From a bacterium (lineage in GTDB: Bacteria; SZUA-182; DTGQ01), in contig JBFLZW010000087.1 in assembly GCA_040755755.1 (NCBI GenBank), positions 41,638 through 105,637 of the forward strand: 64,000 nucleotides of DNA. The letters run 5' to 3'. Within the stretch, counting starts at the first letter, position 1; each line of letters begins with the position of its first letter. Shown here piece by piece: positions 53,113 to 64,000 of the stretch. Position numbers and translations under genes: made by a program. Under the pieces are notes generated by a model. That model did not search any database, had not been told where the DNA came from, and was given only the letters and a program-made list of their open reading frames with translations.

Positions 53113-53325
53113 TTTCCAGTTTCCACAAAATTATTTTTTCCCACCCGAGTTTTATCAGACAAAGCACAGGCCAAAAACAGAAATGGTATTACCCTCATGA
53201 AAGGGTTTATACCCTGTATCGTTCATTCTTTTTATGGTTCTTACAGCATAATATATATACTCATGCTGCTTGCTCTCCTCGAGGGGTATTGCCAGCAGGG
53301 AGTCAGGATGATGAAAGGAGAGATA

Positions 53326-55773
53326 ATGGAGAATAAAAAAGTAATGATTACACAGATCCTTACTGTATTTTTATTTTTTTCCCTCTGCTTTTGGGGGGCA
53401 GGAAAGCCATCGGCTTCTCAGGCTGCATCTGGCGAGGTATCGGCCGCTCTATCACCAGCGGTTATCGTTGAAGCGGACCCCGCCATCTATCCGCCTCAGG
53501 AGGAGGTGCCGGTATCTCAGGCTGTTCGCGTTACGTTCAATAAAAACATGGATCAGGCAACGACCCGGTCAGCCTTTGCCCTGTACCGGATTTCTGGAGC
53601 CGGTGAGCATCTTTTGGTTGACGGAATTTGTCAGGTTACGGGCAATGTTCTTACCTTTACCCCATTCCACCCCCTGGCCGCAGACTCCATCTACCAGGTG
53701 GCCCTGAGCTTGAAAGCCACTGATGCGAGCGGCCAAAATTTGCAGGGCATCCAGAATACCCCTCCAGCGCAAGGAGATATCCTCTGGTATTTTGTCACTG
53801 TAGCCGATGCTATTCCTCCGGAGATTACCGATTGCTCACCTGCTTCGGAAGATAGGGATATTTCTCCTCCGACTGAGATCAGGTTTCATGTCCGGGATAA
53901 TAACGCGGGCGTGGATCCTGGTTCTCTGGCAGTGAAAATCAATGGCCAACAGGTGGCCCCTGTTCTCAGCCCAATGTCAAAGAAGGACTTACAGGTAGTA
54001 TATTCTCCGGATACTCCTTTCCCGTATGGCGAGAGAATCACGGTTTCCATTTATGCCAGGGATTATGTGGGTAATCCCGTTGAACAGTCCTATTCATTCA
54101 CCACCATGAGCAGGCCGGATCGATCCTGGTCCCTGGAGCATAAGGCCCTGACGGATGTTGCCGCTCTGGCTATCGACAGCCAGGACCAGCTCTGGGTGGC
54201 TTTGCGGCAAGGCCCCGATGGCAGCACCGGCGGGGTCAGAATGTTTGATGGCAGCCGCTGGCACCTGTACGCCTCGGCAGGGGAGGTATTCATTGATAAT
54301 GCAACAGCCATAGCCGTTGACAGCCGGGATCAGGTATGGGTTGGCCTTGGGACGGATGAGGCTGCGGGGGATGATCCGAATGCTGTCCCCAAGCTGGCAA
54401 AATATAATGGACAGAATTGGACACTCTACACCGCCAAAGCCCTTGGTGTTTCCTCTGAAGAAGAAATCAATGAAATAGCCGTCGATTTTCAGAATCACCT
54501 CTGGATCGCCACATCCTCAAGCGGAGTGATTGAGTTTGACGGGAATTTCAGCCTGCCGCGGGGACTGGAAGATACCGGCCAGGAGGATATCCAGGTCAGG
54601 GCAATTGCCCCTGGACCGGACAACGATATTTGGGTTGGAACCGACCTTTACGGGGTCCTGCGGTTAGGCGCGGTCGGGGGATGGGTGCAGTATGCTTTTT
54701 CGGTCCGCGGCCGGGATCCGGTTGATTTTATCGTCAACGACCTGGCTGTCGGTACTGATGGAAAAGTGTGGGCAGCCACCAGCTCAGGTCTATTGCAGCT
54801 TTCTCCGGATGATGAGGCAGGTGGAGGATGGAAGTGCCTGATCCCCAATAATTTCGTTCATGCCGTGGCTGTAGACAGGCGATCGGGAAATATCTGGATT
54901 GGAACGGAGCGGGGGCTTCTCAGGCTCGACAGCCAATCGAACCAGGTAAATTTTTTGCCAGATGAGCCATACTATCCTCTTGCAGCCGAGGCTGTTACCC
55001 ATATAGCCATAAATCCCAACCCCGGTCATCCAGAAATCTGGGTTGCCGGCACTGACTCACTGGCCAGGAGAGATGAAAATGCACCTCGGATTATTTCCAG
55101 TCTACCGAAAGGCGGAGCTCAAAATGTAGCTGAAAATACTTCTATTACCATATACTTTTCCGAGGCCATGGATCCAAATTCCAGGGCATTTTTCAACCTG
55201 TATGACTCTCGCCATAAGCCCGTTTCAGGCAGTGCCATAATTGACGGAGATACCTTGACATTTGCTCTTCCTCCAGGCGCATCTTTGCTGGAGGGTGAGA
55301 CCTACACACTCATCGCCGCCTCTCAGATGCAGGATCTGGCCGGTAACAGGCTCGATGGAGATCGGGATGGACTGGGAGGAGAGCCGGAGGATACCTGCTC
55401 GCTTGTTTTTACGGTCGAGAAGAAGGCCGTACCACTTCCTTCCAGTGAAGGATGGCTATCCGCTTACAGCGGAGGATGGAGCGGTGCGGGTTTTGGTTTT
55501 CCAGGTTCTCCTGCCGGACTTTTCGGCACTCAGATCATCCCCCTGAATCCGTGGTCCGGCCTGAGCCCGATGTCCGGTTTTAGTTCATGGTCTGTTTTCA
55601 ATCCTCTGTCCGGCTTTGATTCGCAATTTCAAAACAACTGGGGGGCCTCTTTCGGTCAGGGAATCTCTTTTAATCAGTTTGGCTTTCAGGGATGGAGCAG
55701 CAATAGCTGGTCTACCCAGCCTCTGGGGAATACACTGCGCAATTTTCTCCCGGGAGGTCTTGGTTCTAACTGA
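53326..55773 (+). CDS. Secreted Ig-like (Big_5) and propeller-repeat protein
   Basis: This protein has about 815 residues. ATG 53326 is chosen for the AAAGGAG 5 bases upstream and the signal peptide that follows (MENKKVMITQILTVFLFF, cleavage after SASQA). A first Big_5-like domain (VRVTFNKNMDQATT), a second Ig-like domain, a beta-propeller with repeated IWVGTDLYGVLRL / LWIATSSSGVIEF units (about 265-590) and a third Big_5 (ITIYFSEAMDPNSRAFF) come in order. The last 90 residues are Gly, Ser, Trp and Phe-rich with no charged residues to speak of. The propeller type is the one found in two-component sensors, here exported. Confidence 0.75.
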   Translation: MENKKVMITQILTVFLFFSLCFWGAGKPSASQAASGEVSAALSPAVIVEADPAIYPPQEEVPVSQAVRVTFNKNMDQATTRSAFALYRISGAGEHLLVDGICQVTGNVLTFTPFHPLAADSIYQVALSLKATDASGQNLQGIQNTPPAQGDILWYFVTVADAIPPEITDCSPASEDRDISPPTEIRFHVRDNNAGVDPGSLAVKINGQQVAPVLSPMSKKDLQVVYSPDTPFPYGERITVSIYARDYVGNPVEQSYSFTTMSRPDRSWSLEHKALTDVAALAIDSQDQLWVALRQGPDGSTGGVRMFDGSRWHLYASAGEVFIDNATAIAVDSRDQVWVGLGTDEAAGDDPNAVPKLAKYNGQNWTLYTAKALGVSSEEEINEIAVDFQNHLWIATSSSGVIEFDGNFSLPRGLEDTGQEDIQVRAIAPGPDNDIWVGTDLYGVLRLGAVGGWVQYAFSVRGRDPVDFIVNDLAVGTDGKVWAATSSGLLQLSPDDEAGGGWKCLIPNNFVHAVAVDRRSGNIWIGTERGLLRLDSQSNQVNFLPDEPYYPLAAEAVTHIAINPNPGHPEIWVAGTDSLARRDENAPRIISSLPKGGAQNVAENTSITIYFSEAMDPNSRAFFNLYDSRHKPVSGSAIIDGDTLTFALPPGASLLEGETYTLIAASQMQDLAGNRLDGDRDGLGGEPEDTCSLVFTVEKKAVPLPSSEGWLSAYSGGWSGAGFGFPGSPAGLFGTQIIPLNPWSGLSPMSGFSSWSVFNPLSGFDSQFQNNWGASFGQGISFNQFGFQGWSSNSWSTQPLGNTLRNFLPGGLGSN

Positions 55774-58857: not shown

Positions 58858-61785
58858 TTATTTGCACCCAAACCATGAACCAATGGTTCCAATAAAGCAC
58901 ATCTTCGACTTGTCATCGGAAGACCCGGAAGAAACTGGTGTAGGCACATAGATATAATTGGTCTTGCTGGTATTATTGGGGTCTACCGGTGTTGCGTAAA
59001 TGTCCTGTGATGGTGAGCTTTCAACGTCATATTCATTATATGCGGTCAGCAGTATCCGGTAAGTAGTATTGTTCTGCAGGTTCGTGAGGTTATAGGAAGT
59101 CACATTCCCGACATCGACCTTGTTCCTGAGGTTTCTGATAGAGCCGTTAGTCCCTGAATTGTTCCCGCTGTTTCCCCCCGGGGTTCCCCCATTCATGTCT
59201 CCGCCGTTTCCTCCCGTTCCGCCGGTACCACTATCCATACTCCCTCCATCGCCGCTCGATCCGCCGGGAGTATATCGGCTTGCCGATTGCACAGCCCTGA
59301 TAGCGGAAACATCGTAATAGAGGTTATATCCCTGAGCTTCGGCGACCCTTTCCCAACTGAGCTTGACCGTGGAGCGGTCAACCGAGACCACAATCGAGGA
59401 TGGTTCTGCCGGAGGCTCGGCTATGCCCTTGAGTCCGAAGCTGTCTTTGATGATGTCCCTGTAGGCCCGGTCATATTTAGCTTCATCGACAGCCAGAATA
59501 TCGAGGAGAAAATCCAGGTATGAGACCGGTTCCGCATAGGCGGCAAACAAAAAGAGCGTATTGGCTGTTTTGATTCCATTCTCTCCGTATCTGCGGCGAA
59601 GCTCCTTCCGAAGGTTCCACATGGCCCCGGACAGAATAAGGCTGCTTTCGTAAAGCTCATCTCCATAATTCAGCCGGTAATGCAGGTCATTTTCCAGATC
59701 CCGTAAGGCTCCCTGATTCCAGAAGCCACCCTCGGCGATCAGAGAATCATTATTGATAGTGCAGGCCCAGTAATCGGAAAATGCCTCATGCATGGCATCG
59801 AACTGATTAAACCGGCTGGGATTGGATACAGGATTGCTTTCATAGATAGTATCGGTGACGGCATGACTTACTTCATGGTAGATAATATCTGAATAGAGAG
59901 AAAAATCCTGATATTCAGCCTTATCACCTTCTCCAAGGTAAATCCCGTCACCTTCAAGCCAGTAAGAGTTGTTGATCTCCTCAGTATTGTGAACCGTAAT
60001 GGAGATGGGAAAGAAAGAATCCCTTCTTCCCGGAAAATTAGGGTCTATTGCCTTAAGATATTCAATGAGATAGTTGGCATGATAGTAGGCGTTCAACTCG
60101 TCGATATCCCCGGAGGCACTGATAGTTCCGGTATCCGTTTGGGGATTGTAATCGCTGGCGGCTTTGAGCGTGACCGTGATTTCGTCGGGCCTGTTTCGCA
60201 CGATGTTGCCATTGGTATAGACCAGACCCTCTCCCTCATGGTTCCTGACCTGGAAATAGGTTCCCTTAAGGCTGATATCAAGGATATTATTTGCCGCCTC
60301 ATTGGTGAAAGTAAAACTCCCGTTCTCATCAGTCACTCCCTGGACAGCGTGGTAAACGCCGATATCGTCGATGTTCCATCCGCAGTAATTATAAAAGCTG
60401 TTGGTGGGTCCCATGCCCCAGCGGATAGAAAAGGTCCCCGGATTCCCGCTCAGAAAGGAGGAAAGATCATAAGACACCAGTTTCCATTCTCCATCATAGA
60501 TCGGCTCGAGGGGATTTGACCAGACCACATGCCAGTTGCCCGGCAAGCTGCTGATTTCGATATTGGCTTTATCCGAATTCGATCCTTCAACTCCAAGCCA
60601 GCGCCAGAATCTGAGGACTGTTTTTTTGCTCCCGCTCTGCCTGGTGATTGGCTTTGTAGTCAGGTACTCCCGGTTGGTCAGGTTCTCGTAATAACTGCCG
60701 CGCAGATTGTATCCATAGACAGCGGAGCCGGTATGGCCTGCATCCGGGTCCGTTTCCTCTGATCCCGAAGAGCCTGCCACCGGAATGCCGTATTCCCACC
60801 GAAATAGTGAGGTCCCGGCCCATCCTGGATCCTGGTTGAGATTTTCAAACATCAGAGGAGATGTTTTATCAAGGAGCGTAGCGGTCAGATTGGAAAACGG
60901 GACCGTAAGTATCGTGCCGGGATATTCGGGCAGGATTTGCCCCTCCACTTTTCCGAAAACCGAATAGCGTGCCCGGTCATAGTATTCGATAATACTTCCG
61001 TCCTGGGCATCGATAAAGTACCTCCACCCTTTGGCCAGCCGGGGGCAGGTTGCTTCGATCTCCCAGCATAAGCGGTATGCAACAGGTTGTGTGTCCTGCA
61101 GGGGATAGATAACCAGCCGGGGCTGGTTGCAGGTCAGGGAATCCGGGGAGAGTCCGCGGCTCTGGGCAACCATGCCAATGGCTGTCCGGCTGTCCAGGGA
61201 GGATTGCGGATCGATGGTTATCCCTGGATAGACAGTTCCCCCAAAGGTTAAAAGCTTTCCTGATTGCTGATAGCGCAAGGTCAGATATCCCCCGTAGACG
61301 GGAATTGACTGAGCGTATTGGCTGAACCTGACATACCATATTTCTCCCCGCTGATAAACCCTCTCCAGATGAAAGTCCTGGTAGCTTACCTGGAAAATCG
61401 ATTCGTTTTCCCGGATGAATTTTTTTGATTCCTCAATCAGGTCCGCCTGGCTGCTCAGCTTTCGTTGAGCTTTGCCTGAAGACGAAGTACCGGTAGCCTC
61501 CACCCGCAGATAATTTGCCGTTTGGCTTCGCAGGACCTTCCAATCTCCTCCATTCCTTGCGAGAAAATATCTCCATGATTCATCCTTCTGGAGCCTCTGC
61601 GGAGAGATTATTTGAGCATCCTCTCCGCGGCTCGAATAATTCCCGGTTAAACTTCGTTCCCTTTTTCCCTTGCCGGACTGCAAAAGAGCATAGGCAGGGT
61701 TGTCCCATAAGGCTATTCCTCCAATAAAAATAATCAGAGGCAGCAAGGTGGAAATGGAAGCAAGCAGGCGAACACATTGAACCAT
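58858..61785 (-). CDS. Secreted thermolysin/fungalysin-like metalloprotease with CFI-box-like C-terminus
   Basis: This 975-residue protein has an N-terminal signal segment (about 8-33), an FTP/PepSY-type propeptide (about 90-270), a MAM-like jelly roll ending WNIDDIGVY (about 370-480) and a gluzincin catalytic domain with YHEVSHAVTD (about 635) and EAFSDYWACTIN (about 660), which give the zinc ligands. A fibronectin-III-like domain interrupted by a Gly/Ser/Asn-rich loop (about 840-890) follows. The C-terminus ...MCFIGTIGSWFGCK is like the CFI-box tail seen on exported proteins. It may process the neighbouring repeat proteins. Confidence 0.8.
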   Translation of the reverse strand: MVQCVRLLASISTLLPLIIFIGGIALWDNPAYALLQSGKGKRERSLTGNYSSRGEDAQIISPQRLQKDESWRYFLARNGGDWKVLRSQTANYLRVEATGTSSSGKAQRKLSSQADLIEESKKFIRENESIFQVSYQDFHLERVYQRGEIWYVRFSQYAQSIPVYGGYLTLRYQQSGKLLTFGGTVYPGITIDPQSSLDSRTAIGMVAQSRGLSPDSLTCNQPRLVIYPLQDTQPVAYRLCWEIEATCPRLAKGWRYFIDAQDGSIIEYYDRARYSVFGKVEGQILPEYPGTILTVPFSNLTATLLDKTSPLMFENLNQDPGWAGTSLFRWEYGIPVAGSSGSEETDPDAGHTGSAVYGYNLRGSYYENLTNREYLTTKPITRQSGSKKTVLRFWRWLGVEGSNSDKANIEISSLPGNWHVVWSNPLEPIYDGEWKLVSYDLSSFLSGNPGTFSIRWGMGPTNSFYNYCGWNIDDIGVYHAVQGVTDENGSFTFTNEAANNILDISLKGTYFQVRNHEGEGLVYTNGNIVRNRPDEITVTLKAASDYNPQTDTGTISASGDIDELNAYYHANYLIEYLKAIDPNFPGRRDSFFPISITVHNTEEINNSYWLEGDGIYLGEGDKAEYQDFSLYSDIIYHEVSHAVTDTIYESNPVSNPSRFNQFDAMHEAFSDYWACTINNDSLIAEGGFWNQGALRDLENDLHYRLNYGDELYESSLILSGAMWNLRKELRRRYGENGIKTANTLFLFAAYAEPVSYLDFLLDILAVDEAKYDRAYRDIIKDSFGLKGIAEPPAEPSSIVVSVDRSTVKLSWERVAEAQGYNLYYDVSAIRAVQSASRYTPGGSSGDGGSMDSGTGGTGGNGGDMNGGTPGGNSGNNSGTNGSIRNLRNKVDVGNVTSYNLTNLQNNTTYRILLTAYNEYDVESSPSQDIYATPVDPNNTSKTNYIYVPTPVSSGSSDDKSKMCFIGTIGSWFGCK

Positions 61786-62044
61786 GACGTACTACTCCCC
61801 CCTTCAAATGATGAAATAGAATAACCACGTTAGACTTTATTTACCTTTTCAGCATATTCTGTACCAGGACTGATCTTTTTAAGGAATTAAAAATTGGCTT
61901 GACAAAGCAGGCATCTCTGAGGAAAAAGAGGGATGCTCGTTCTTTGAGGAGGAGAGTGGTGTGTTCTTTTCCGCGAGAGCAAGTGACAGGTTTTTGAACA
62001 GTTCCGGGGATGACTGATTGAATACTGGTTGAGACCGGGAAAAA

Positions 62045-62081
62045 CCGGGAGGGCAGCCCTGAATGAAGGCTGCCCTCCCGG
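62045..62081 (-). terminator. Terminator after the first YGGLYG gene
   Basis: ccgggagggcagcc (62045-62058) and ggctgccctcccgg (62068-62081) form a perfect 14-bp stem. Read on the minus strand it is followed by TTTTT. Confidence 0.8.
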
Positions 62082-62148
62082 TTCGAGCAAGCAATTATCA
62101 TTATGAGTGAATGAGATTAAACATACCTTAGCAGGAGATTCACCTCAG

Positions 62149-63234
62149 CTACCAGATAAAAGGAATGAGAGGGAATAAAGCAGAGATAACAGCCGGTGCC
62201 GCTGTAGCTGTGGGAACCAGAACCGTAGGAGCAACAATCGTAGGAGCAACAATCGTAGGAGCAACAACTGTCGGAGCTGCAACGGCTGGAGCTACAACAG
62301 GGGCGGAAACCGTGGGAAATACGGTCAGATCAAGATTGAAGGTTCCTGTCTGGTCAACTCCCAGAGCCTTGACAACGATACCGGTAGCTACACTGACAAT
62401 ACTCCAGGTTCCGGTCATGGTGGTAGGACTGGTCAGGGTCCCGCTGATCTGGAGAGCATAGGTTCCCAGAGCATTAATTCCACTCAAGGTGACAGAATAT
62501 GGAGTAGAGGTTCCATAGACCGTAACCGGCGTCGGGATAGAGGCATTTCCAAAGAGTGTGGCTGTTCCGGTGAGGAATCCGGTCAGAGGATCTTCAACCA
62601 GAGTCAACGTCATATCAGCATACAGGAAACCCAGATACCAGGTTCCGGTCCATGATCCGTCAAACTGCTCGGCAGTAATAGCCGCAGTGGCAGCAGGTGC
62701 CGCAGTAGTGGTTGTAGTAGTAGGCGGAGTGAGCCCGGCCAGAGCTGTCAATATAGCATTCGACGTACTGCTCAGACCTGAAAGACCGCCAAGACCGCCA
62801 TACAGACCGCCTAACCCGCCGTACAGTCCACCCAGACCACCATAGAGGCCGCCCAGACCGAGCATGCCGCCATACAGGCCATACAGACCGCCCAGGCCAT
62901 ACATACCATACAGGCCGCCGTACAAACCGCCATAGAGACCGCCGAGCCCGAACATTCCGCCATACAGGCCATATAAGCCACCATACAGGCCATACAATCC
63001 ACCGTACAGTCCGCCTAATCCATACATACCACCATACAGACCGCCGTACAATCCGCCATACAAACCGCCATAGAGACCACCCAAGCCGTACATACCATAT
63101 AAGCCACCACCATACAAACCGCCATAGGAGCTGTAATACCCTTCGCTTGGCTTGGAAAGAGTGATAATCAGGCAGAGTATCAAGAGGAACGAGAGGCAGG
63201 TTTTCAACCATGATTTTCCAGGGTCTTTCATCAT
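62149..63234 (-). CDS. Secreted YGGLYG-repeat protein with C-terminal beta domain
   Basis: This protein has about 361 residues. ATG 63234 is chosen for the AAGGAAA upstream and the signal peptide that follows (WLKTCLSFLLILCLIITL). Residues about 35-155 are near-perfect short repeats of GGLYG, GMYGLGG and GLYGGMFG, containing only Gly, Leu, Tyr and a few Met/Phe. A compact beta-rich domain (about 195-310, GSWTGTWYLGFLYADMTLTL to TGTFNLDL) and a VVAPTIVAPT tail follow. The beta domain recurs in the next gene. I recognise no family. A fibre, matrix or amyloid role is inferred from composition. Confidence 0.7.
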   Translation of the reverse strand: MMKDPGKSWLKTCLSFLLILCLIITLSKPSEGYYSSYGGLYGGGLYGMYGLGGLYGGLYGGLYGGLYGGMYGLGGLYGGLYGLYGGLYGLYGGMFGLGGLYGGLYGGLYGMYGLGGLYGLYGGMLGLGGLYGGLGGLYGGLGGLYGGLGGLSGLSSTSNAILTALAGLTPPTTTTTTAAPAATAAITAEQFDGSWTGTWYLGFLYADMTLTLVEDPLTGFLTGTATLFGNASIPTPVTVYGTSTPYSVTLSGINALGTYALQISGTLTSPTTMTGTWSIVSVATGIVVKALGVDQTGTFNLDLTVFPTVSAPVVAPAVAAPTVVAPTIVAPTIVAPTVLVPTATAAPAVISALFPLIPFIW

Positions 63235-63323
63235 ACGACTTTCCTTCCCTACAATGAGTGTTTTCATGCATCCTTGAGAATTGCTCTCAAGAGCCTAATG
63301 AAAAATCAGGCTTACACTGGGAA

Positions 63324-63358
63324 GGCAGCCTTCTTCGGAAAAGCTGAAGAAGGCTGCC
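63324..63358 (-). terminator. Hairpin between the two YGGLYG genes
   Basis: ggcagccttcttc (63324-63336) and gaagaaggctgcc (63346-63358) form a perfect 13-bp stem with a 9-base loop, just past the stop of the upstream paralogue. No T-run follows, so partial termination or mRNA stabilisation is possible. Confidence 0.6.
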
Positions 63359-63404
63359 CTCGTCTCCTATTACGATATACACCTTCAGACTGAGCCTGTT
63401 AAAC

Positions 63405-64000
63405 CTAGATTACCGGAGCAAGCAGGCTGAGCTTAAAGCTGCCGGTTTCCACCAGTGAAGTACTGTTGGTCAGGGTATAGGTTCCGTCCATAGTGGTAGC
63501 GGTAGTCAGGGTACCAACAATATCAATCGTAAAGGTCATAGTACCAAGGCCAATGCCGGAGCCGCTGAGGATAATCTGACTGTTCAGTGCAGTTCCGGTA
63601 ACATCCACCAGACTGCCCAGCGTGGGATTACCCAGCAGTTGAACATAACCGGACAGGGTTCCCAGCAGAGGATCTACAACCAGGTTGAGAGTCATTGGGC
63701 CGGAAACAAGCCCTGAAGACCAGATACCTTCCCAGGTTCCAGCCTGCTCGGCAGCCGTTAGCGAACCACTTAAGGCGGAGATGAGAGCCAGGGTGCTCAA
63801 ATCACCCATGCCATAGAGCCCGCCCAGACCATAGAGCCCACCCAGGCCGTACATACCATAAAGCCCGCCATAGAGGCCGCCCAGGCCATACAAGCCGTAG
63901 AGCCCGCCATAGAGGCCACCCAGGCCGTACATGCCATAGAGTCCGCCGTAGAGTCCCATGCCGTAAAGTCCGCCGTAGAGACCGCCATACAAGCTTCCTA
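63405..64000 (-). CDS. Second YGGLYG-repeat protein, 5'-truncated by window edge
   Basis: The frame is open to the window end, so the signal peptide and part of the repeat are missing. The visible part has about 70 residues of GGLYGLYGLGG-type repeats and then a beta-rich domain (EQAGTWEGIWSSG to TGSFKLSLLAPVI) paralogous to that of the neighbouring gene. It has no Val-Ala-Pro tail and ends directly after the beta domain. Tandem duplication of one ancestral gene is likely. Confidence 0.7.
   Translation of the reverse strand, partial: GSLYGGLYGGLYGMGLYGGLYGMYGLGGLYGGLYGLYGLGGLYGGLYGMYGLGGLYGLGGLYGMGDLSTLALISALSGSLTAAEQAGTWEGIWSSGLVSGPMTLNLVVDPLLGTLSGYVQLLGNPTLGSLVDVTGTALNSQIILSGSGIGLGTMTFTIDIVGTLTTATTMDGTYTLTNSTSLVETGSFKLSLLAPVI

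Follow-up and report, generated by a model that had tools for sequence, protein, structure and literature searches.

The window analyzed here is a 64,000-nucleotide stretch of contig C87 (positions 41638 to 105637, the latter being the end of the contig), and the two genes at its end belong to a family of exported bacterial proteins in which a tract built almost entirely from glycine, leucine, and tyrosine (the GLYG tract) is joined to an eight-strand barrel of avidin-like fold. On balance, we consider it probable that these are lineage-specific secreted structural proteins, with cohesive disordered tracts, barrels that oligomerize, and a coat, sheath, or adhesive matrix as the product. Once the protein has been exported and its signal peptide cleaved off, both steps being predicted from the sequence, the Gly-Leu-Tyr tract would stay disordered and sticky, its Tyr and Leu side chains making many weak contacts, and would behave like the soft segment of squid ring teeth. 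The C-terminal barrel, which is not expected to bind biotin, would most likely self-associate, and tracts radiating from one folded node would then give a network. Avidins form dimers or tetramers. This structural reading has two main rivals: in one, the barrel binds a ligand and the tract is a flexible tether; in the other, the tract forms an ordered amyloid or silk-like fiber.

Gene 1, which encodes a GLYG-repeat/barrel protein precursor, lies on the minus strand at positions 62149 to 63234; the features described below are on this strand unless marked otherwise. Its reading frame is open to 63267 (62149 to 63267, 372 aa). Translation more likely begins at the ATG ATG pair at 63234/63231, which follows GGAAGGAAAG, and the N terminus of the ortholog (L083:6979-8430; barrel 89% identical) agrees with this start. 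The encoded parts are arranged in the order signal peptide, GLYG tract, linker, beta domain, and Pro/Val/Ala tail. The signal peptide (63139 to 63234; an AF2 helix at precursor residues 4 to 25) is probably cut before YYSS, judging by the sequence, and the paralogs have the same N-terminal layout. The GLYG tract covers 119 residues (aa 44 to 162; 62782 to 63138) and is composed of 57 Gly, 29 Leu, 25 Tyr, 5 Met, 2 Ser, and 1 Phe, bearing out an earlier description of runs made of only a few residue types. It is followed by a linker with the Thr/Ala-rich stretch PPTTTTTTAAPAATAA (62683 to 62781), by the barrel as delimited by the domain profile and AF2 (62317 to 62670), and by a Pro/Val/Ala-rich C-terminal tail of PTVVAPTIVAP repeats (62152 to 62316). 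A tail of the same type is also found in the paralog L010:373-1788 and in its ortholog from the sister species (G001).

Gene 2 is open at the end of C87. Its 3' part (63405 to 64000) contains an avidin-like barrel with eight strands and the conserved C terminus PVI (63408 to 63749), preceded by the portion of the GLYG tract that lies within the window (63804 to 63998). Contig C5 opens with exactly the 127 bases that close C87, which is the signature of adjacent nodes in an assembly graph. When the two contigs are joined, the frame becomes complete and encodes about 229 aa; the 5' part of the gene, including the signal peptide MRSLKIKTLIALSVLLFALVSMPAQKADA, is located at C5:1-254. Both genes thus have signal peptides, supporting the view, taken beforehand with a signal peptide seen on the complete copy, that the proteins are exported.

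Beyond gene 2, contig C5 continues with a further pair of family genes and a subtilase in the same orientation. The joined contigs hold four same-strand GLYG genes between the subtilase and an M4 (thermolysin-like) metallopeptidase, which lies downstream of gene 1 on the same strand (58858 to 61785), contains HEVSH and an fn3-like domain, is predicted to be exported, and occupies the same place in the sister species. The sequence-only reading had recognized two tandem genes; both open reading frames are where it had placed them, on the minus strand, and the array itself comprises four genes. In G001, a subtilase, a barrel gene, a gene-1-type gene, and an M4 peptidase follow one another on one strand of one contig. 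Identities to the window's genome are 75% for the subtilase, 89% for the barrel gene, 90% for the gene-1-type gene, and 70% for the M4 peptidase, the values for the two GLYG genes referring to the aligned barrel part only. The genes that flank the array on both sides are also kept in G001, and this agreement in synteny confirms the join of C87 and C5. G001 has one pair of GLYG genes, and the middle pair is duplicated in the window's genome, giving four.

Each of the two genes is followed by a strong hairpin, which suggests that they are transcribed separately. The hairpin downstream of gene 1 (62042 to 62084) is long, terminator-like, and accompanied by a U run (minimum free energy of -40.9 kcal/mol, z of -5.9), and the one downstream of gene 2 (63321 to 63362) has a z of -3.9. 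The two have the stem core GGCAGCC/GGCTGCC in common. Another long GC-rich hairpin follows a family gene at L009, possibly representing a recurring type of terminator. A consensus promoter scan gave no score above those of shuffled sequences.

To describe the tracts as a group, 1,982 residues were pooled. They consisted of 44% G, 23% L, 22% Y, 5% S, and 3% M, with A (0.8%), V (0.5%), T (0.5%), and D (0.1%) as minor constituents and no K, E, Q, H, or C. GGLYG occurred 198 times, at an irregular spacing in which GGLYG, GLYGLYG, and GSSLYG units are mixed. A degenerate DNA pattern for GLYGGLYG, allowing any codons, matched 98 times in the window's genome and the reversed-pattern control did not match at all; the repeat is therefore not due to chance. 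Among 386 genomes, the pattern recurred in five that belong to a single order, with counts of 98, 115, 12, 2, and 20. The one match outside this order came from a genome in which the control also matched once.

The tracts use all four Gly codons, both Tyr codons, and up to six Leu codons. Mixed codons combined with uniform residues indicate that selection keeps the protein sequence and not a DNA repeat. This bears on the explanation that the proteins are exported but nonstructural, for example, a protease substrate or a storage protein, and that slippage during replication produced the repeat incidentally. Such an origin would fit the variable number of repeats in orthologs (e.g., 24 versus 13). 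It is at odds not only with the codon usage but also with the conservation of the family, since many paralogs are kept across several genera and the barrels of 19 reciprocal-best ortholog pairs from the two sister species are under purifying selection, with dN/dS ratios of 0.04 to 0.19 (about 0.1). We regard this explanation as very unlikely. The same ratios imply that the paralogs are old and that each has been kept as itself, unlike in a phase-variable array.

In the AF2 model of full-length gene 1, the GLYG tract appears as low-confidence coil (pLDDT of about 35 to 45), whereas the barrel reaches about 93. An ordered amyloid, one of the products considered in the sequence-only reading, consequently gains no support from AF2, which is a weak test of amyloid. 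In such a functional amyloid or silk-like fiber, cross-beta fibrils of the tract would form outside the cell, with the barrel capping them or nucleating their growth. In favor of this are the length of the tract and its lack of charge, and the suckerin peptide GLYGGYGV (GV8) gels in water via antiparallel beta-sheet fibrils; the Leu-ended variant GL8, however, did not gel in the same study (PMC6839752). These two results also bear, for and against, on the cohesion proposed for the tracts in the structural reading. The coil prediction and the irregular spacing of units likewise speak against fibrils, and neither Pfam nor NCBIfam returned a match to curlin-type repeats or another amyloid family. 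Taken together, we find an ordered fiber improbable. With curli, RTX, and PE_PGRS proteins, the tracts share being exported, repetitive, and Gly rich; Pfam and NCBIfam profiles gave no match to any of these groups, and the tracts differ from RTX proteins in having no Asp-rich nonapeptides (D, 0.1%) and from bacterial functional amyloids in having no Gln/Asn ladder.

A closer likeness is to the suckerins, a protein family that makes up a load-bearing external material (PMC6839752). In sequence type, the bacterial tracts correspond to the soft segment of squid ring teeth, whose repeated amorphous motif is YGYGGLYGGLYGGLGY (PMC4555047). In modeling work, hydrogen bonding and chain entanglement of this segment give rise to self-healing and adhesion (PMC4555047). 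In the animal proteins, the Gly-rich modules alternate with Ala/His/Ser/Thr-rich beta-sheet modules, whereas each of the window's proteins has a single block of Gly, Tyr, and Leu together with a single folded barrel. The strength of suckerins comes from Ala/His-rich beta blocks, and such blocks are absent from the bacterial tracts, which weighs against the structural reading; a search of the tracts for alternating Ala/Val/Ser/Thr/His-rich beta modules found none (A, 0.8%; H, 0). The resemblance is one of convergence, not kinship. Among the matches listed by searches of the open literature, there was no bacterial GGLYG or GLYGG protein.

The beta domain that had been noticed at the C terminus of both genes is indeed present in both, and its description can be refined to a calycin/avidin-type barrel. 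From an input of 13 natural sequences, AF2 predicted the domain of gene 2 as eight antiparallel strands over 114 residues, with a mean pLDDT of 90.7. Its best solved relatives by fold were avidins and streptavidins (Z of 11.6 to 13.2; about 2.2 to 3.1 Å over approximately 100 residues; for the avidin family, Z of 12 to 13 at 2.2 to 2.6 Å), sharing 11 to 19% identity with the barrel, and the best Foldseek match was wilavidin (E of 0.004). Designed lipocalin-like barrels and nitrobindins were also among the fold matches. As other calycins and designed barrels share it, the eight-strand barrel is not specific to avidins. Reading the barrel as an outer-membrane porin is not favored, since its matches by fold are to soluble proteins.

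Like avidins, the bacterial barrel is an antiparallel eight-strand structure with GTW in strand 1; unlike them, it lacks the pocket tryptophans and is fused to a long repeat. In an alignment of 61 barrels, only two Trp columns were conserved, both in strand 1 (GTWxGxW), and every other column had Trp in at most 5 of the 61 sequences, so the biotin-pocket Trp residues of the middle and C-terminal strands were not found. Replacing Trp70 and Trp110 of avidin, the change seen in fibropellin, suffices to abolish biotin binding (PMC8033661). A profile of 23 members retrieved no avidin from the PDB chain sequences at E values up to 10, and there was no Pfam avidin match. The missing sequence link and the missing pocket tryptophans identify the barrel as avidin-like in fold but not an avidin. 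Six PDB sequence matches of the profile (E of 0.5 to 10, none of them an avidin) and a single match of gene 1 to PDB sequences were attributed to chance. Matches to Pfam TamB (E of 0.001, 2 of 23 members) were rejected as beta-rich noise, as were single-member matches in PHROGs and NCBIfam (E of 0.0008 at best) as chance. No relatives were found among viral contigs and plasmids. For neither the domain nor the whole protein was there a matching family in Pfam, NCBIfam, or PDB sequences, and the layout is kept in five genomes of one order, which supports the proposal of the sequence-only reading that the family is undescribed.

That reading had named a match of the beta domain to a known family with a nonstructural role as evidence against a structural protein. 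The fold does resemble a ligand-binding family, but the ligand residues are missing. This leads to the rival in which the barrel of a surface protein binds a small hydrophobic ligand, different in each paralog, and the GLYG tract serves as a flexible tether or anchor in the matrix. Ligand binding is known for the avidins, lipocalins, and nitrobindins that turned up in the fold comparison, lipocalin-like barrels frequently bind their ligands as monomers, and the barrel fold alone is no proof of oligomerization. Divergence of the paralogs (most are 28 to 70% identical to the first sequence) alongside conserved orthologs is also what different specificities would produce. On the other hand, of the aromatic residues of the avidin pocket only the strand-1 Trp columns are kept, a tether needs no such uniform G/L/Y composition, and there are GLYG genes without a barrel. 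We therefore consider ligand binding unlikely. A structural role, with the beta domain as a cap or assembly module, is still a well-motivated proposal, given the match of the repeat to a squid material segment and the use of the avidin-like fold for oligomerization in fibropellin.

Two eukaryotic systems offer precedents for parts of this arrangement. Passages in two papers describe the avidin fold of fibropellin, a matrix protein, as serving oligomerization without biotin (PMC8033661, PMC10336842). The sea urchin protein resembles the bacterial one, by fold, in carrying its barrel on the C-terminal side; it differs in that its repeats are EGF domains, for which the bacterial proteins gave no Pfam match, and the bacterial barrel has no detectable sequence similarity to avidins. 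In turtle corneous beta-proteins (beta-keratins), GGLYG tails, for example, YGGLYGLGGLGGYGG, extend from a beta core (PMC8074788); a compact beta region is joined to a G-G-L-Y-G segment, with the same division of labor as that proposed here for the bacterial family. These proteins are vertebrate and epidermal, have another beta core and no barrel, and place the beta region before the Gly-rich region; the order is reversed in the bacterial proteins, which showed no Pfam match to a keratin-type core. The bacterial family unites the GLYG soft-segment idea and the biotin-free avidin-fold idea in one protein.

Using the beta-domain profile (A1), we counted 24 copies in the window's genome (G000), 23 of them strong, 20 in the sister species, and 8, 2, and 7 in three more members of the order. 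The domain was present in 5 of the 386 sampled genomes, the same five that carry the GLYG repeat, and absent from the sampled rest of the class and from the broad bacterial sample; the limit to one order holds for the genomes sampled. Paralog counts were taken from searches and from individual sequence stretches of a draft genome, and they may shift by a few because contigs break inside tracts (ends of C66, C79, C84, and C87; N runs in C54 and C83). GLYG genes that lack a barrel number at least about seven in the window's genome, and GLYG is missing from some of the barrel genes; as each occurs without the other, neither is obligatory, which counts against the structural reading. The fear that repeats would be absent from homologs did not materialize: they are present, and in divergent barrel members GLYG is replaced by other low-complexity, mostly Tyr-rich tracts, e.g., YPTTPAYSTYPTYP. 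The architecture is thus best described as signal peptide, low-complexity and usually Tyr-rich tract, and barrel, with GLYG as the commonest form. GLYG tracts are also joined to unrelated N-terminal parts, as read from the sequences of L141:138-704 and L137:778-1461, where they stand at the extreme C terminus after DPTLVDPTLV repeats or a Pro-rich region.

A second conserved segment of about 46 residues, module B (SPFGLQNMYFPIETGTGLTYQVPFLQIAPLLGIAGLYNSLFPNLF; 86% mean column identity), follows GLYG tracts with or without a barrel (e.g., L013:6906-7403, L019:5916-6800, and L009:6985-7833). Four of the five genomes contain it, and it had no Pfam match. One protein with GLYG and module B runs approximately 90 residues further to a single conserved CXXCH heme motif, namely, SCTQCHSN in G000 (L011:8162-8911, C6), SCTQCHAN in G001 (a 249-aa ORF at L146, C157), and SCVQCHTN in G002 (L134:2801-3604, C11). 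Going by these motifs, it is a possible extracellular monoheme GLYG protein. Its conservation in three genomes would suit a redox or conductive matrix, in which electrons would pass through a protein layer outside the cell by way of dense Tyr and interspersed heme members. With only one heme paralog seen per genome, no redox neighbors noted, and neither a tract Cys nor a heme site in the window's genes, we judge this reading highly improbable. Adjoining the heme-type gene on C6 of G000, L011:6342-7436 encodes a chain in which a long SYSPYSTYGTYG repeat turns into GLYG repeats.

The soft-segment sequence of squid sucker teeth and turtle scutes recurs, by convergence, in a large family of one bacterial order, and neither the barrel nor module B corresponds to a family in the databases searched. 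Should the proteins be a structural material, GLYG chemistry would have been invented at least three times, genetically simple bacterial versions would be available for materials work, and the surface of an uncultured lineage may be characterized by this trait. A further question becomes testable, namely, whether a GLYG tract plus an oligomeric node is enough for a cohesive solid.

Similarly to the array in the window, other family genes lie beside proteases. The window's genome has eight subtilases above the Pfam cutoff and two M4 peptidases, and five of the former and both of the latter (7 of 10 together) are located within 1.5 kb of a family gene, a condition that about 2.9% of the genome would satisfy. 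The resulting binomial P values, approximately 1e-6 for subtilases and 2e-9 for both protease types, are guides only, because the pattern was noticed first and uniform gene placement was assumed. Exported genes may cluster for other reasons. Related pairs of protease and family gene persist in G001, G002, and G003, at loci chosen around family genes. The HEXXH motif is present in M4, and the catalytic-Ser motif is present in the subtilases checked. These adjacent secreted subtilases and M4 peptidases would probably trim or mature the GLYG proteins outside the cell. A more far-reaching version of the structural reading, which we put forward tentatively, is a bacterial counterpart of sucker teeth, an external material built from about 30 secreted proteins of the GLYG kind, with nodes of avidin fold, module B and heme variants, and maturation by subtilase and M4 peptidases, convergent with the materials of cephalopods and reptiles.

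TPR, sulfatase, and mannosyltransferase neighbors were dropped as dedicated partners, being too generic. PMT-like membrane proteins with TPR repeats adjoin GLYG genes at L013:8520-10565 and L117:5655-7778. The Thr-rich linkers (TTTTTT) could be targets of O-glycosylation. Near the array, on the plus strand of the window (53197 to 55773), is a gene for a further putative low-complexity surface protein; predicted to be exported, it combines Big_5 domains with regulator-propeller repeats and ends in the Trp/Ser/Phe-rich low-complexity tail WSGLSPMSGFSSWSVFNPLSGF.
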